A stretch of DNA of 64,000 nucleotides from NCBI RefSeq assembly GCF_004348535.1, contig NZ_SMJX01000003.1, positions 1 through 64,000 on the forward strand, read 5' to 3'. The position numbers were made by a program, and so were the translations under genes. Each line of letters begins with the position of its first letter. Within the stretch, counting starts at the first letter, position 1. The notes under the pieces are model-generated. The model was given only the letters and a program-made list of their open reading frames with translations. It had not been told where the DNA came from and did not search any database. This document shows positions 36,064 to 41,437 of the stretch, in pieces. Source of the stretch: Actinomadura sp. KC216. GTDB taxonomy: Bacteria > Actinomycetota > Actinomycetes > Streptosporangiales > Streptosporangiaceae.

Positions 36064-36459
36064 ATGATCGTTCGTTCCCTTGACGAGATCATCGGCACCG
36101 AGCGCGACGTGCAGGCGCCGACCTGGTGCAGCCGCCGGTTCGTGCTCGCCAAGGAGGGCGTCGGCTTCTCGATGCACGAGACGATCCTGTACGCGGGCAC
36201 CGAGACCAAGATGTGGTACGCGAACCACGTCGAGGCCGTCTACTGCATCGAGGGCCAAGGGGAACTGACCAACGACGAGACCGGCGAGAAGCACAAGATC
36301 GAGCCGGGCGTCATGTACCTGCTCGACGGCCACGAGCATCACACTCTGCGCGCTCACACGGACGTGCGGACCGTCTGCGTGTTCAACCCGCCCTGCACCG
36401 GACGGGAGGTCCATGACGAGAACGGGGTGTATCCGCTGCTGACCGAGGAGGACGCATGA
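36064..36459 (+). CDS. ectC: L-ectoine synthase
   Basis: 131 aa cupin-fold enzyme that cyclises N-gamma-acetyl-diaminobutyrate to ectoine. [50 protein letters not shown] and [45 protein letters not shown]-type motifs are complete, with metal ligands (Glu, Tyr, His) present. AAAAGAGGAG precedes the ATG. The 169 bp after ectB contain T/C-rich short repeats (tccatgccatccacgccgtc) and no gene. Confidence 0.96.
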
Positions 36460-37421
36460 GCATCATCGAGTCCCATCCGACGATCGACGACGCGTACCCC
36501 ACCCGCAAGTGCGCCGAGGCGGCGCTGCTGTACCGGCAGGACCTGGTCGTTCACGGCGAGGCCGGGGACGGGCCGATCGACGCCGCCACCCTCGACGCCT
36601 ACGAGGCGAACGGCTTCCTGTCCGTCGACCAGCTGCTCGCGCCCGACGAGGTCGAGGACTACCGCGCCGAGCTGCGCAGGCTGTCGGCCGACCCGGAGGT
36701 CCTCGCCGACGAGCGGACGGTCACCGAACGCGGCTCGGACGAGGTCCGCTCCATCTTCGAGGTGCACAAGATCAGCGAGGTCTTCGCCGGGCTCGTCCGC
36801 GACCCGCGCGTGGTGGGCCGGGCCAGGCAGATTCTCGGCTCGGAGGTTTACGTCCATCAGAGCCGGGTCAACTACAAGCCAGGATTCACTGGCAAGGACT
36901 TCTATTGGCACTCGGATTTCGAGACCTGGCACGCGGAGGACGGCATGCCCCGGATGCGCGCGGTGAGCATATCCATCGCGCTCACCGAGAATTTCGTGCA
37001 CAATGGCGGGCTCATGATCATGCCTGGCTCGCACAAGACCTTCGTGGCCTGTGTCGGGGAGACCCCGGACGACCACTACAAGGAGTCCCTGCGCGGGCAG
37101 GAGATCGGGACGCCCGACTCGGCGAGCCTTTCGATCCTGGCCGACAAACACGGGATCGAGCTGTTCACAGGGCCTGCGGGCTCTGCCACCATGTTCGACT
37201 GCAACTGCATGCACGGCTCCAATGGGAACATCACCCCGTTCCCCCGCTCCAACGTGTTCATCGTGTTCAACAGCGTCGAGAACACGTGCGTCGAGCCGTT
37301 CTCCGCCCCCGCACCGCGTCCGGAGTTCATCGGCGCCCGGGACTTCACCCCTGTTTCCGCCGGAGGCGGACCGGGGGGCGTGGGGGGTCGTCCCCCCTCG
37401 AATGGACCCGTCGGCGGCTGA
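36456..37421 (+). CDS. ectD: Ectoine hydroxylase
   Basis: 321 aa PhyH-family Fe(II)/2-oxoglutarate dioxygenase, makes 5-hydroxyectoine. Iron ligands His and Asp in [20 protein letters not shown] and distal His in [10 protein letters not shown]; 2OG-binding Arg region [11 protein letters not shown]. Overlaps ectC by 4 bp. Oddity: after the normal family end (about ARDFTPV) the protein continues with a Gly/Pro tail, [19 protein letters not shown], encoded by a G/C-rich hairpin repeat that also occurs in ehuA. Confidence 0.95.
37368..37400. repeat. 33-bp GC-rich hairpin repeat, copy 1 (end of ectD)
   Basis: Contains GGGGGG-TCGT-CCCCCC, a tight hairpin, and encodes [11 protein letters not shown] in the ectD frame. 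It matches 39808-39840 at 30 of 33 positions. The neighbours share no other similarity, so this is a small dispersed palindromic element inserted in frame near a gene end. Confidence 0.85.
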
Positions 37422-37458
37422 ATGAACACAACAATTCGATAACCCGACACACGTCAGG

Positions 37459-37503
37459 CCCGCGCCCGCGGGGGGCCGTCCTCCGGTCCCCCGCGGGCGC
37501 GGG
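37459..37503 (+). terminator. Hairpin between ectD and ehuB
   Basis: A perfect 16-bp stem: CCCGCGCCCGCGGGGG at 37459-37474 pairs with 37488-37503 around a 13-nt loop. It ends 21 bp before the ehuB start. It probably terminates or attenuates ectABCD transcription, or protects the processed mRNA end, so that synthesis and uptake genes can be expressed at different levels. Confidence 0.7.
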
Positions 37504-37524
37504 GTTCACACATCCAGGAGTTCG

Positions 37525-38421
37525 ATGATGACTTCCTCGAGACGCGACTTCCTGCGCACCGCCGTGTTGCTGTCCGCCGCGGTACCGCTGGCCGCGGCGG
37601 GCTGCTCCACGACGGATCCGGAAGAGGAGAAGGCGGGCGGGGGCACGCTGCAGAAGGCCAAGGACGCCGGGACGATCACGGTGGGCTTCGCCAACGAGGC
37701 GCCCTACGGCTACACCGACAAATCGGGGAAGCTGACCGGCGAGGCCCCCGAGCTCGCCCGGGTCATCTTCAAGCAGCTCGGGATCGACGAGGTCAAGGGC
37801 GTCCAGGTCGACTTCGGCGGCCTGATCGGCGGCCTGAACGCCAAGCGGTTCGACGCGATCGCCGCGGGCATGTTCATCACTCCGGAGCGCTGCGCCTCGG
37901 CGGCGTTCGCGAACCCCGAGTACGTCGCCAAGAGCGCCTTCATGGTTCCCGAGGGCAACCCGAAGGGCCTCAAGGGCGCCAACGACCCGGCCGCGAAGGG
38001 CGTCCGCGTCGGCGTCATGACCGGCGCGGTCGAGGCCGGCTACGCCGAGAAGACCGGCGTCAAGAAGAGCAACATCAAGACCTACGCCGACCAGCCGAGC
38101 GCGTTCGAGGGGCTCAAGGCCGGGCGCATCGACTGCATTTGGCTGACCCGCATCTCGCTGGCCGACCTGGCGTCCAAGCACCAGGGCGAGGGTTTCGAGG
38201 TGACCGACCCGTTCGTCCCGGTCATCGACGGCAAGGAGCAGTTCGGCGCGGGCGCGTTCGCGTTCCGCAAGGCCGACTCGGACCTGCTGAACGCCTGGAA
38301 CGGCGAGCTCGACAAGCTCAAGCAGCAGAACAAGCTGCTGCCGATCCTGCGGCCGTTCGGGTTCACCCAGGCGGAGATCCCCACCGCGGGCGACACGGCC
38401 GCCAAGTTCTGCCAGGGCTGA
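37525..38421 (+). CDS. ehuB: Ectoine/hydroxyectoine ABC transporter substrate-binding protein
   Basis: 298 aa. Twin-Arg signal SRRDFLRTA and lipobox AAGC, so probably a Tat-exported lipoprotein. Type-2 periplasmic-binding fold: GTITVGFANEAPYGYTDKSGKLTGEAPELARVI, DFGGLIGGLNAKRFDAIAAGMFITPERC, GVMTGAVEAGYAE. Matches the EhuB family; binds ectoine or hydroxyectoine. GGAG lies 4-7 nt before two consecutive ATGs (37525/37528). Confidence 0.94.
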   Translation: MMTSSRRDFLRTAVLLSAAVPLAAAGCSTTDPEEEKAGGGTLQKAKDAGTITVGFANEAPYGYTDKSGKLTGEAPELARVIFKQLGIDEVKGVQVDFGGLIGGLNAKRFDAIAAGMFITPERCASAAFANPEYVAKSAFMVPEGNPKGLKGANDPAAKGVRVGVMTGAVEAGYAEKTGVKKSNIKTYADQPSAFEGLKAGRIDCIWLTRISLADLASKHQGEGFEVTDPFVPVIDGKEQFGAGAFAFRKADSDLLNAWNGELDKLKQQNKLLPILRPFGFTQAEIPTAGDTAAKFCQG

Positions 38422-38424
38422 CCC

Positions 38425-39141
38425 GTGGCTGACGTCCTCGACAGCTACAACCAGTGGCTGGACGGCGCGTGGCTCACCATCCAGCTCACGATATTCGGCG
38501 GCGCGGTGGCGCTGGTGCTCGCCCTGATCTTCGGGCTGGCGGGCACCTCGCGCCACGCCTGGGTGCGCGTGCTGAACCGGGTGTACGTGGAGTTCTTCCG
38601 CGGGAACGCGACACTGGTGCTCCTGTACTGGTTCTTCTACGCGCTGCCGCTGGTCGGGCTGCGGTTCACCACCATGTTCGCGGCGGTCCTCGCGCTCGGC
38701 CTGAACGTCGGCGCCTACGGCGCCGAGGTGGTCCGCGGCTCGATCAACGCCGTCCCGAAGGCGCAGTACGAGGCGACGGTGGCGCTGAACTTCACGCCGT
38801 ACCAGCGGATGCGGCGGGTGCTGCTGCCGCAGGGGTTCGCGCTGATGCTGCCGCCGTTCGGGAACCTGATCATCGAGCTGATGAAGGGGACGGCGATCGT
38901 GTCCCTGGTCGGCCTGGTCGACCTGACCCGCGTGTCGAAGAACATCCAGGGCAGCACGGGCGAGACCGTCGCGGCGTTCACGGTGGTGCTCGTCCTGTAC
39001 TTCGTGATCGCGCAGATCCTGCAGCTGTTCGTCCGCTACGCCGAGCGCCGCGTGGACCGCATGCTGGGCCGTAAGCTGCCCAGTGAGCCGTCCCTCGGCA
39101 CGATCGCGGCCGGCGCTCCCGGAGCGGGGGTGGGCAGCTGA
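38425..39141 (+). CDS. ehuC: Ectoine ABC transporter permease EhuC
   Basis: 238 aa polar-amino-acid-type permease with five hydrophobic segments and EAA-loop motif AVPKAQYEATVALNFTPYQRMRRVLLPQGFALMLPP. GTG start 3 nt after the ehuB stop. Ends by overlapping ehuD by one base. Confidence 0.93.
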   Translation: MADVLDSYNQWLDGAWLTIQLTIFGGAVALVLALIFGLAGTSRHAWVRVLNRVYVEFFRGNATLVLLYWFFYALPLVGLRFTTMFAAVLALGLNVGAYGAEVVRGSINAVPKAQYEATVALNFTPYQRMRRVLLPQGFALMLPPFGNLIIELMKGTAIVSLVGLVDLTRVSKNIQGSTGETVAAFTVVLVLYFVIAQILQLFVRYAERRVDRMLGRKLPSEPSLGTIAAGAPGAGVGS

Positions 39142-39794
39142 TGGACTGGGACTGGCAGTACTCCGGGGACATCCTCCCCGACCTGCTCGACGGGCTGCGC
39201 TACACCGTCATCGCGACGCTGGCCGGCTATGTGATCGCCCTGCTCCTCGGGCTCGTGTGGACGCTGCTGCGCCGCACCCCGAGCCGGGCCTTCAACCAGG
39301 CGATCCGGTGGATCACCGAGTTCATCCGGTCGACGCCGCTGATCCCGCAGCTGTACTTCGTGTTCTTCGTCCTGCCCGCGTGGGGCATCACGATCGGGTC
39401 GCTGACGGCCGGGATCATCACGCTCGGGATCCACTACTCGACCTACACCGCCGAGGTGTACCGGGCCGGGATCGCCGACGTCCCGAAGGGGCAGTGGGAG
39501 GCGTGCACCGCGCTGAACCTGCCGCGGTCGCGGGTGTGGCTGGACGTGATCCTGCCGCAGGCGATCCGCCGGGTGATCCCGACGCTCGGCAACTACCTGA
39601 TCGCGATGTTCAAGGACTCGCCGATGCTGCTGGCGATCAACGTCGCGGAACTGCTGTTCTCCGCCTACCAGGTGGGGTCGAGGAGCCTGCAGTTCCTGGA
39701 GCCGATCACGATGGTCGGCCTGTTGTTCGTCGTGGTCAGCGTCATATCCTCGATACTCGTCCGCCGCTTGGAGAGGCGTTATGCCACCAACTGA
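39141..39794 (+). CDS. ehuD: Ectoine ABC transporter permease EhuD
   Basis: 217 aa permease of the His/Glu family (GLRYTVIATLAGYVIALLLGLVWTLLRR; EFIRSTPLIPQLYFVFFVLP; EAA loop DVPKGQWEACTALNLPRSRVWLDVILPQAIRRVIPTLGNYLIAMFKDSPML). Forms a heterodimeric channel with EhuC. Its last 14 bases overlap ehuA. Confidence 0.93.
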   Translation: MDWDWQYSGDILPDLLDGLRYTVIATLAGYVIALLLGLVWTLLRRTPSRAFNQAIRWITEFIRSTPLIPQLYFVFFVLPAWGITIGSLTAGIITLGIHYSTYTAEVYRAGIADVPKGQWEACTALNLPRSRVWLDVILPQAIRRVIPTLGNYLIAMFKDSPMLLAINVAELLFSAYQVGSRSLQFLEPITMVGLLFVVVSVISSILVRRLERRYATN

Positions 39795-40722
39795 ATCCGA
39801 CGAAGTCGGCCCGGGGGGAGTGGGGGGTCGCCCCCCCTCGGAGAAAACTGATACGACACCGGATGCTCCGGCCCCGAAGGGCGAGGGCGTTTCCACGGAG
39901 AAGGGCGCCCCCACGGAGAAGGGCAAGACCGCCGCGCCGCTGCCGAAGGGCGACGCGCCGGGCATCCGCTTCGAGAAGGTGGTCAAGCGGTTCGGCCACA
40001 ACGTCGTGCTCCGCGAGCTCGACTTCACCGTGGCGCCGGGCGAGCGGGTGACGCTCATCGGGCCGAGCGGGTCGGGCAAGACGACCATCCTGCGGCTGCT
40101 GATGACGCTGGAGAAGCTCGACGAGGGCCTCATCTGGATCGGCGACGAGACGCTGTGGCACATGGAGCGCGGCGGCAAGCGCGTCCCGGCCAACCAGAAG
40201 CACCTGCACGAGATGCGCAAGCAGGTCGGCATGGTGTTCCAGCAATTCAACCTGTTCCCGAACATGAACGTCCTGCGCAACCTCACCGAGGGGCCGGTGC
40301 GGGTGCTCGGGGTGTCCAAGGACGAAGCGGTCGAACGGGCGCGGGACCTGCTGGACCTGGTCGGGCTCGGCGACAAGATCGACGCGCATCCGTCGCAGCT
40401 GTCGGGCGGCCAGCAGCAGCGGGTGGCGATCGCGCGGGCGCTCGCCATGCAGCCGAGGGTGCTGCTGCTGGACGAGGTCACCTCCGCCCTGGACCCGGAG
40501 CTCGTCGTCGGCGTCCAGGACCTGCTGCGCGACATCGCCCGGCAGAGCGACCTGACCCTGCTGTGCGTCACCCACGAGATGACCTTCGCCAAGGACATCT
40601 CCGACCGGGTCCTCATGTTCGACGGGGGCCAGATCGTCGAGGAGGGCCCGCCGGACCGGATCTTCGGCGAGCCGTCCGAGCAGCGCACCCGGGACTTCCT
40701 CCAGGCCGTCCTGGCGTCCTGA
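39781..40722 (+). CDS. ehuA: Ectoine ABC transporter ATP-binding protein EhuA
   Basis: 313 aa. Walker A GPSGSGKTTILRLL, Q-loop VFQQFNLFPNMNVLRN, signature LSGGQQQRVAIARAL, Walker B VLLLDEVTSALDPE, H-loop VTHEMTFA. Unusual: about 60 residues precede the ABC fold (GIRFEKVVKRFG). They include [11 protein letters not shown], encoded by the same hairpin repeat as in ectD, and a Lys/Gly/Glu-rich stretch (KGEGVSTEKGAPTEKGK). The GGAGAGG before ATG 39781 supports translation of this extension. Confidence 0.94.
   Translation: MPPTESDEVGPGGVGGRPPSEKTDTTPDAPAPKGEGVSTEKGAPTEKGKTAAPLPKGDAPGIRFEKVVKRFGHNVVLRELDFTVAPGERVTLIGPSGSGKTTILRLLMTLEKLDEGLIWIGDETLWHMERGGKRVPANQKHLHEMRKQVGMVFQQFNLFPNMNVLRNLTEGPVRVLGVSKDEAVERARDLLDLVGLGDKIDAHPSQLSGGQQQRVAIARALAMQPRVLLLDEVTSALDPELVVGVQDLLRDIARQSDLTLLCVTHEMTFAKDISDRVLMFDGGQIVEEGPPDRIFGEPSEQRTRDFLQAVLAS
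39808..39840. repeat. 33-bp GC-rich hairpin repeat, copy 2 (start of ehuA)
   Basis: Same element as 37368-37400 with three substitutions; hairpin GGGGGG-TCG-CCCCCC. It begins 27 nt after the ehuA start codon and is read in the frame that gives [11 protein letters not shown], as in ectD. Confidence 0.85.
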
Positions 40723-40739
40723 CCGGCCGAGAAGGTTCC

Positions 40740-40777
40740 GCCGCCCGCGCCCCCGACGCCCCGGGGACGCGGGCGGC
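40740..40777. terminator. Bidirectional terminator between ehuA and HD gene
   Basis: GCCGCCCGCG (40740-40749) pairs exactly with CGCGGGCGGC (40768-40777), and an inner CCCC/GGGG extends the stem. It lies in the 61-bp gap between two convergent genes, so it can serve both strands. Confidence 0.7.
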
Positions 40778-40783
40778 CCGCTG

Positions 40784-41437
40784 TCAACGCACGCCGGGCC
40801 AGGCGGCGGCGACGAGCTCCGCCCATTCGGGGACGGGGGCGCCCGCCCCGTGCTGGCGGGCGAGTTCGCCGGGGAACGACCCGAGCGGGGCCTTGGCCGG
40901 GTTCCGGATGATCTGGTCGATGATGATCCCGGTCAGGCGGCGGCCCGCGTCGTCGCGGGGAAAGGCGGCGTGCGCGCGGTCGGCGAGACCTTCGGGCAGC
41001 GCCCCGGCGCCCAGCGCGACGATGTCGGCGCCGCTCCCGGCGTGGGTGAGCGCGATCTCGGGGCGCATCCGGTGCGCGATCCCCACGCTGGTGTGCAGCG
41101 CGATCGCCTCCCAGACGACGCGGACGCGCTCGCCGTCCAGGCCGTTCCGGCTCAGGAACTCCGCGGCGAGGTCGGCGCCGTCCACCTCGAAGCGGCCGGC
41201 GCCGTCGCCGCGCTCGGTGAGGCCCGCGTCGTGCAGGAGGCACGCCAGGAACAGCGTCTCGTCGTCGTAGTCGGCTCCCGCACGCACGCCCTGCGCCTCT
41301 CCGATGGCGCGCCCGAACAGGTACGTGCGGACGCTGTGGCGCGCGAGCGGCTCGGGCCCCAGGGAGAACACCAGGTCGTAGGCCATGCGGGTCAGGTCGG
41401 TGTCGGGCATCGAGAATTCGGCGAAGTGGTCGGTCAT
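40784..41437 (-). CDS. HD-domain protein, cyanamide hydratase-like
   Basis: 217 aa. HD pattern: His in LARHSVRTYLFGRAIG, HD doublet in FLACLLHDAGLTE, then RFEVDGADLAAEFL, WEAIALHTSVGIAHR and PEIALTHAGSGADIVALGA. The overall pattern resembles the cyanamide hydratase-like branch of HD proteins, from memory. Start at ATG 41437; the reading frame continues open far upstream, but that part is the antisense of the next genes. Divergent from a GlxA-type regulator, 54 bp apart, which probably controls it. Confidence 0.85.
   Translation of the reverse strand: MTDHFAEFSMPDTDLTRMAYDLVFSLGPEPLARHSVRTYLFGRAIGEAQGVRAGADYDDETLFLACLLHDAGLTERGDGAGRFEVDGADLAAEFLSRNGLDGERVRVVWEAIALHTSVGIAHRMRPEIALTHAGSGADIVALGAGALPEGLADRAHAAFPRDDAGRRLTGIIIDQIIRNPAKAPLGSFPGELARQHGAGAPVPEWAELVAAAWPGVR

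Follow-up and report, generated by a model that had tools for sequence, protein, structure and literature searches.

In-frame copies of a short hairpin repeat in ectD and ehuA point to a family of probably mobile repeats largely confined to Actinomadura

The 64,000-nucleotide stretch of Actinomadura sp. KC216 considered here (contig NZ_SMJX01000003.1, positions 1 to 64,000; "the window" throughout) carries an ectoine gene cluster in which two genes, ectD and ehuA, each host one copy of a short hairpin repeat (Table 1). The cluster further contains the genes for ectoine synthase, EhuB, EhuC and EhuD, as recognised by NCBIfam profiles. The two 33-bp copies pointed out in an earlier note on this DNA (37368-37400 and 39808-39840) are real: they differ at 3 of 33 bases (30 of 33 identical) and encode an identical 11-residue peptide within the EctD and EhuA open reading frames (ORFs). 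Comparison with empty orthologues identifies them as the cores of longer units, present as 57-bp in-frame inserts. The match to TIGR02408 spans EctD residues 27-300, leaving the insert (residues 301-319) outside the conserved domain, and the match to TIGR03005 starts at EhuA residue 62, the insert (residues 5-23) lying within a variable N-terminal leader.

Table 1. Features of the two repeat copies and their host genes (window coordinates)
Feature	Position	Strand	Basis
ectD, ectoine hydroxylase, 321 aa, host of copy 1	36456..37421	+	TIGR02408, 457.8 bits, cut-off 336.5
ectD insert, 57 bp, in frame, 3' end of the gene, 19 codons	37356..37412	+	aligned to empty orthologues ending FTPVGG*; boundaries +/- few bases
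ectD copy, 5' hairpin TCCGCC-GGA-GGCGGA	37356..37370	+	sequence; present in predicted fold
ectD copy, main hairpin GGGGGG-TCGT-CCCCCC	37382..37397	+	sequence, predicted fold, family alignment
ehuA, ectoine/hydroxyectoine ATP-binding cassette (ABC) transporter ATPase, 313 aa, host of copy 2	39781..40722	+	TIGR03005, 367.2 bits, cut-off 345.4
ehuA insert, 57 bp, in frame, after codon 4, 19 codons	39793..39849	+	aligned to empty orthologues beginning MPPTDTTP; boundaries +/- few bases
ehuA insertion, direct repeat AACTGA, left copy	39789..39794	+	sequence; single AACTGA in empty G013 allele
ehuA insertion, direct repeat AACTGA, right copy	39846..39851	+	sequence; comparison with empty G013 allele
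ehuA copy, 5' hairpin CCGAC-GAA-GTCGG	39797..39809	+	sequence; present in predicted fold
ehuA copy, main hairpin GGGGGG-TCGC-CCCCCC	39822..39837	+	sequence, predicted fold

Both copies belong to a larger sequence family. Within the KC216 draft genome (9.06 Mb, 667 contigs, 98.4% complete), the 23-base pattern GGGGNGTGGGGGGTCGNCCCCCC occurs at 25 exact places and the 24-mer GGGGGTGTGGGGGGTCGTCCCCCC, with up to 3 mismatches, at 55 places (31 and 24 on the two strands), the reversed control patterns giving 0 in either case; the 55 places correspond to 54 copies, two near-identical neighbours on contig C6 being counted once (G, C and L numbers are our handles for genomes, contigs and loci). The earlier note had proposed just such a genome-wide search and held that the lack of further copies would speak against a mobile repeat; many further copies were found. 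The bare hairpin GGGGGG-N4-CCCCCC is no rarer in the window than chance (14 matches with up to 2 mismatches, 24.5 expected), and the family is thus recognised by its fuller sequence. The aligned copies share a core of CCGGGGGG, three variable bases, GGGGGG, TCGN, CCCCCC and three further variable bases, and a typical unit consists of a left part followed by CCGGGGGG and the hairpin TGTGGGGGG-TCGT-CCCCCCACA, the stem of which has 9 bp at most. The unit measures 45-48 bp in copies whose ends are set by clear direct repeats, and insertions add 42-60 bp, mostly 54 or 57. Three left forms recur by eye: TGAGCG(A/G)AGCGAACCG; forms ending in TTCCG or TTGCCG; and a hairpin with a GNA loop followed by CCG, with TCG at the right, to which both window copies belong. 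A GNA left hairpin is found in 9 of 27 copies of the TCG class against 22 of 146, a suggestive comparison between two slightly different tests. An outer stem GTTCC...GGAAC, suspected by eye, is not claimed, the right-hand GGAAC being present in 6 of 62 TTCCG/TTGCCG copies and 2 of 38 AACCG copies. No Rfam family scored above threshold in window positions 36300-40900, where the sole match fell below the gathering score and lay elsewhere, and a search of a plasmid collection returned one partial Streptomyces match only (E 0.3). Two of the KC216 copies (L052 and L073) have an identical 40-base left flank, which suggests a larger repeat enclosing the element.

The hairpin itself shows some covariation. 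Alignment and covariation were analysed on 51 of the 54 copies, those at contig ends without flanks (L009, L025, L059) being left out. The variable bases on either side of the hairpin tend to pair with each other (TGT..ACA, TCT..AGA, TTC..GAA), and 88.9% of cells are paired against 85.9% in shuffles. Cells altered on both sides number 17 compared with 6.6 in shuffles, a value reached by none of 500 shuffles and by none of the slid versions (at most 6), and the covariation score of the hairpin was likewise matched in 0 of 500.

Judged from sequence, the family is largely specific to Actinomadura among the genomes searched. Allowing up to 2 mismatches, copies were detected in 62 of 64 congeneric genomes, from 0 (G027, G058) to 82 (G008) per genome, and outside the genus in 2 of 7 genomes from other genera of the family and 1 of 47 more distant ones, with one copy each; the reversed control gave one place each in 3 of 119 genomes. 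A covariance model built from the 51 copies found matches in 50 of the 119 genomes, all within the genus, a count that is a lower bound given its stricter filters. Consistently, a scan of the named collection returned at least 114 stretches, the best 80 of which were all from Actinomadura. The left motif TGAGCGNAGCGAACCG occurs at 13 places in the KC216 genome; elsewhere in the class 8 of 295 genomes have it once, which is near the level of the reversed control (single places in 4 of 295). Tandem arrays with a spacing of 54 or 78 bp were noted in three genomes (G010:C29:25684-25869; G006:C1:2264273-2264530; G042:C29:74841-75017) and could serve strain typing in the way of MIRU-VNTR (mycobacterial interspersed repetitive unit, variable-number tandem repeat) loci.

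Orthologous sites are found both with and without the insert. At 63 orthologous ectoine loci (two of the 65 genus genomes, G023 and G035, were left out for weak matches to the ectoine region), filled and empty states of ectD and ehuA were judged by eye from the peptides. An insert or its remnant is present in 11 of 63 loci at ectD and in 11 of 63 at ehuA, the other 52 being empty in each case. The peptide is thus not ancestral, contrary to the alternative named in the earlier note, under which all orthologues would carry it. Eight of the 11 ectD inserts are 19 residues long, that of G064 has 15 and those of G032 and G059 have 10; with up to 2 mismatches, the hairpin is still recognisable in 2 of 11 ectD inserts (KC216, G026) and in 5 of 11 ehuA inserts (KC216, G026, G062, G014, G040). 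Empty EctD proteins end in FTPVGG*, FTPVGD*, FTPVA* and similar, and empty EhuA proteins begin with MPPTDTTPEAP and similar, with a leader of variable length. Two further observations concern ectD: the EctD C-terminus of G057 (L357) is unlike the other 62, as if frameshifted, and in the window a separate 17-bp inverted repeat with a 5-base loop lies 3' of the gene (37462-37500), resembling a terminator and having no T run.

Comparable contrasts are seen elsewhere in the genome. A short-chain dehydrogenase/reductase (SDR) gene has a 54-bp antisense in-frame insert after codon 3, which measures 60 bp in G026 and is absent from G013, G010, G062 and G005; at a gene junction on contig C188 a 54-bp insert coincides with a stop codon, and of the five relatives that aligned there (out of 10) G026 and G004 lack it; and at a second junction, on C6, KC216 has a tandem array of three units where G013, G026 and G062 each have one, G010 keeps a truncated remnant and six other relatives have nothing. 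In a protein kinase gene (L067, G000:C209), the insert lies within the Ser/Thr kinase domain and occupies the loop before VPYVVMELL, at residues 86-100 of a 321-aa frame: KC216 reads YGEH-TAASGGSEGSSPQRQG-VPY, G026 is filled and G013 reads YGEHSHIPY, 42 bp shorter. The length of this loop varies widely among other relatives in the genus, perhaps through repeated insertion and decay. The minimum number of changes on a tree of ehuBCD is 4 for ectD and 6 for ehuA, and on this tree G026, which has both inserts, groups with G013, which has neither (support 98/80), so that clean loss or allele replacement is likely. G013 is empty and G026 filled at the ectD, ehuA, SDR and kinase sites alike; clean excision, allele replacement and a wrong local tree are the alternatives for this contrast.

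The copies, found in both orientations, are concentrated near gene ends. After exclusion of those less than 300 bases from a locus end, 30 of 46 KC216 copies are no more than 60 bp away from a called gene end; for random positions in the same loci the figure is 238 of 1620 (15%), and the corresponding values for the 104 copies remaining from named genomes are 53 against 440 of 2400 random positions. Host or neighbouring genes are diverse and include those for a pyruvate dehydrogenase E1 subunit, a protein kinase, an alpha-amylase, enzymes of the nonribosomal peptide synthetase (NRPS) type and an SDR, and copies fall within Pfam domains of the E1 dehydrogenase, kinase, AMP-binding, WS/DGAT and alpha-amylase families. 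All six frames through the element are represented, with at least one candidate frame in 47 of 51 copies by a rough test of GC position, which lets spurious frames through as well. The flanks show an excess of direct repeats, which may be 3-9 nt long. Among 173 of 234 non-redundant copies (those with a second hairpin or tandem unit in the flanks were dropped, although incompletely), direct repeats of at least 8 nt surround 36, compared with 7.4 when flanks were swapped, and swaps confined to each of three classes leave an excess in every one (22 against 6.6 of 43; 10 against 3.2 of 108; 4 against 0.45 of 22). Of the 53 copies with repeats of at least 7 nt, 14 have a period of 54 and 10 a period of 57, and in 34 the period is a multiple of 3.

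A recurrent target is the tetranucleotide NTGA, on which 13 of the 54 KC216 copies are placed; in 9 of these, the TGA closes an upstream stop-free frame of more than 240 codons. The ORF opened by an element of this type usually begins MS(E/G/A)ANRGVWG.... In four cases (L010, L015, L024, L050) it is a leader ORF of 18-19 codons closed by a new NTGA, and in five (L017, L060, L066, L071, L072) it continues for 283 to 475 codons, as an N-terminal extension of the next gene. The ORFs of L006 and L062 have 35-36 codons, and that of L009 is truncated where its contig stops; L057 shows a long frame that continues past the locus and probably does not code for protein.

Collectively, the sequence family and its distribution, the empty sites, the bias toward gene boundaries, the excess of direct repeats and some covariation in the hairpin lead us to conclude, with a probability of about 0.83, that both window copies belong to a family of short mobile repeats that are non-autonomous and for the most part specific to the genus. 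The unit would insert in either orientation with a preference for gene junctions, NTGA (often the ATGA of a stop/start overlap) being a recurrent target. A gene that reads through it gains a peptide rich in Gly and Pro, whichever of the six frames is used; at an ATGA junction the unit would give either a short ORF running from the old overlap to a new NTGA or a fusion to the next gene. To judge from the direct repeats, movement may involve either a staggered break or template switching at NTGA, where the duplication may, to go by the flanking bases, be as short as NTGA itself. Copies form tandem arrays of variable size, can vanish from a close relative as if cleanly lost, and otherwise erode in frame. 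We favour mobilisation in trans by an enzyme, or by host replication or repair acting on the hairpin, and the surviving copies would chiefly be insertions that left frame and coupling intact.

Several observations weigh against this conclusion. No mobilising enzyme was found, no search having been aimed at an insertion-sequence partner, and terminal inverted repeats were not detected in 28 copies (mean match 2.96 of 6, 3.00 when swapped). Two of five covariation measures are no higher than in shuffles, namely pairs changed on both sides (4, a value reached by 62 of 500 shuffles) and further pair types (11, reached by 223 of 500). In 22 of 51 copies the outermost hairpin pair is broken. Neither window copy exceeds dinucleotide shuffles in folding (z 0.00 for the 110-nt ehuA start region and 0.33 for the ectD end). 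In the NTGA class, only 8 of 36 pairs match at all nine positions, in four of these eight (L102, L147, L193, L220) the left flank contains a further unit, and the direct repeat is often just TGA; the ectD copy has no clear flanking duplication. Finally, the gene boundaries come from a simple home-made caller, which missed the ehuA start by 39 bp.

Among the other explanations, a miniature inverted-repeat transposable element (MITE), that is, an internally deleted DDE insertion sequence with target duplications of 8-9 bp, would account for the empty sites and for the exact repeats of at least 9 nt around several copies (e.g., L071, L091, L106, L142), but the failure to detect terminal inverted repeats in the 28 copies and the fact that most NTGA copies share little beyond NTGA make it unlikely. 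We consider it very improbable that the repeats are repetitive extragenic palindromic (REP) elements moved by a REP-associated tyrosine transposase (RAYT) of the Y1 (HUH) type. They are short and palindromic, reach tens of copies per genome and often lie at gene ends, and a Y1 match is present in some high-copy genomes (G064, G060, G042, G048, G032); yet Y1_Tnp (PF01797) has no match in the KC216 draft genome or in 46 of the 65 genus genomes, the latter including the high-copy G008 (82 copies), G038 (63) and G007 (57). The direct repeats around insertions also speak against such elements, HUH transposition not being expected to produce them. An ancestral low-complexity Gly/Pro linker, or chance G/C runs in a high-GC genome, would fit the frequency of the bare hairpin in the window; given 55 copies against 0 in the reversed control and empty sites in relatives at six loci, we count this explanation as already refuted and assign it next to no probability. 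Several copies of the draft lie at contig ends (C170:7, C664:13, C487:50), but we reject an assembly artefact in view of copies in the single-contig genomes G005, G056, G059 and G064.

A different possibility is that ectD and ehuA, as a regulon, share a conserved RNA hairpin that tunes translation. The compensatory changes in the hairpin, the position of the ehuA insert directly after codon 4, the presence of two copies in a single cluster and the retention of the hairpin in 5 of 11 filled ehuA alleles speak for such a role. However, either insert occurs in just 11 of 63 loci, the ectD hairpin survives in 2 of 11, and the ehuA start folds no better than shuffles, although both hairpins are present in the predicted structures of the ehuA start and the ectD end. 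Other copies are found at many different positions, in genes of unrelated function and on either strand. The proximity of the two window copies needs no special cause, since non-tandem pairs 0.1-2.5 kb apart number 2 in the genome against 0.79 expected under uniform scatter. We regard this explanation as very unlikely. The proposal in the earlier note of a mobile palindromic repeat that has colonised the gene ends of one regulon is thus borne out as regards the movement of the repeat, its preference for gene ends and its preservation of open frames, as indicated by the genome copies, the empty sites and the boundary bias; its restriction to one regulon is not supported, copies being present in or beside unrelated genes. 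An effect of the insert on ehuA translation is possible, and the better survival of the hairpin in ehuA than in ectD neither proves nor excludes such a role. The ectD and ehuA copies look like ordinary family members rather than a device of ectoine genes, and most likely are passengers in tolerant protein ends.

A more tentative extension of the mobile-repeat interpretation, which we would not favour at present, is that the element is built to be compatible with coding sequence: the usual unit together with its target duplication contributes 54 or 57 bp, stops tend to be missing from the body in all six frames (35 of 51 copies have a 45-base body free of them, the share among composition-matched shuffles being 35.5%), and the element would rebuild the coupling at ATGA. 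If true, this design would permit near-silent colonisation of coding DNA and make the element a source of in-frame linkers and N-terminal extensions, even in catalytic domains. The repeat also accounts for odd Gly/Pro-rich peptides in Actinomadura proteins, and the filled, eroded and empty orthologous sites are numerous enough to measure the origin, decay and loss of insertions.

We found no description of such repeats in Actinomadura in the literature searched, which was mostly open-access and judged largely by title. Bacterial MITEs such as ERIC, RUP and YPAL are, according to PMC2229807, non-autonomous stem-loop sequences of about 100-200 bp, most with terminal inverted repeats and some fused in frame to genes. 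The Actinomadura repeat likewise forms a stem-loop, provides in-frame fusions and is apparently non-autonomous, but differs from that outline in its smaller size and in that no terminal inverted repeats were detected. REP elements are short palindromes at gene ends, present in tens of copies; the Actinomadura repeat departs from the REP/RAYT system in having no Y1 match in its own genome, in often lying within coding sequence and in being accompanied by direct repeats. Closer in behaviour are the Rickettsia palindromic elements (RPEs), portrayed in PMC2229807 and PMC10969869 as palindromic repeats that have entered unrelated protein genes in frame and that some species share and others lack; they measure 105-150 bp and have terminal inverted repeats of 12 bp. 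The likeness consists in the in-frame insertion that adds a peptide, with empty orthologues at ectD, ehuA, the kinase and the SDR gene, and the difference in inserts of 42-60 bp, in terminal inverted repeats that were not detected and in the read-through of all six frames.

Mycobacterial interspersed repetitive units (MIRUs), reportedly due to Supply et al. 1997, offer the other close parallel. PMC12548453 and PMC2734929 present them as variable tandem arrays inserted at start codons, with an internal ORF whose coupling to the gene that follows is at -4 nt; unit sizes are 40-100 bp, with units of 55 and 79 bp given for the fpg1 locus (PMC2734929). The Actinomadura repeat resembles MIRUs, so described, in unit size and in tandem arrays of differing number, as at C6 (3 units against 1 in G013, G026 and G062). 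A subset of its copies, the 13 of 54 on NTGA sites, four of them with leaders of 18-19 codons that stop at a new NTGA, would correspond to the arrangement outlined in the 2025 review (PMC12548453), the coupling being predicted from sequence. It differs from the MIRUs so described, to which it is likened by description and not by sequence, in that copies also lie inside coding sequence in either orientation and in that the core is nearly confined to Actinomadura. With its spread of 0 to 82 copies per genome, the family makes the movement of MIRU-like short repeats approachable, and in it one very short element, at home in a large genus, joins two behaviours known separately, the coupling-preserving insertion of MIRUs and the in-frame gene invasion of RPEs.

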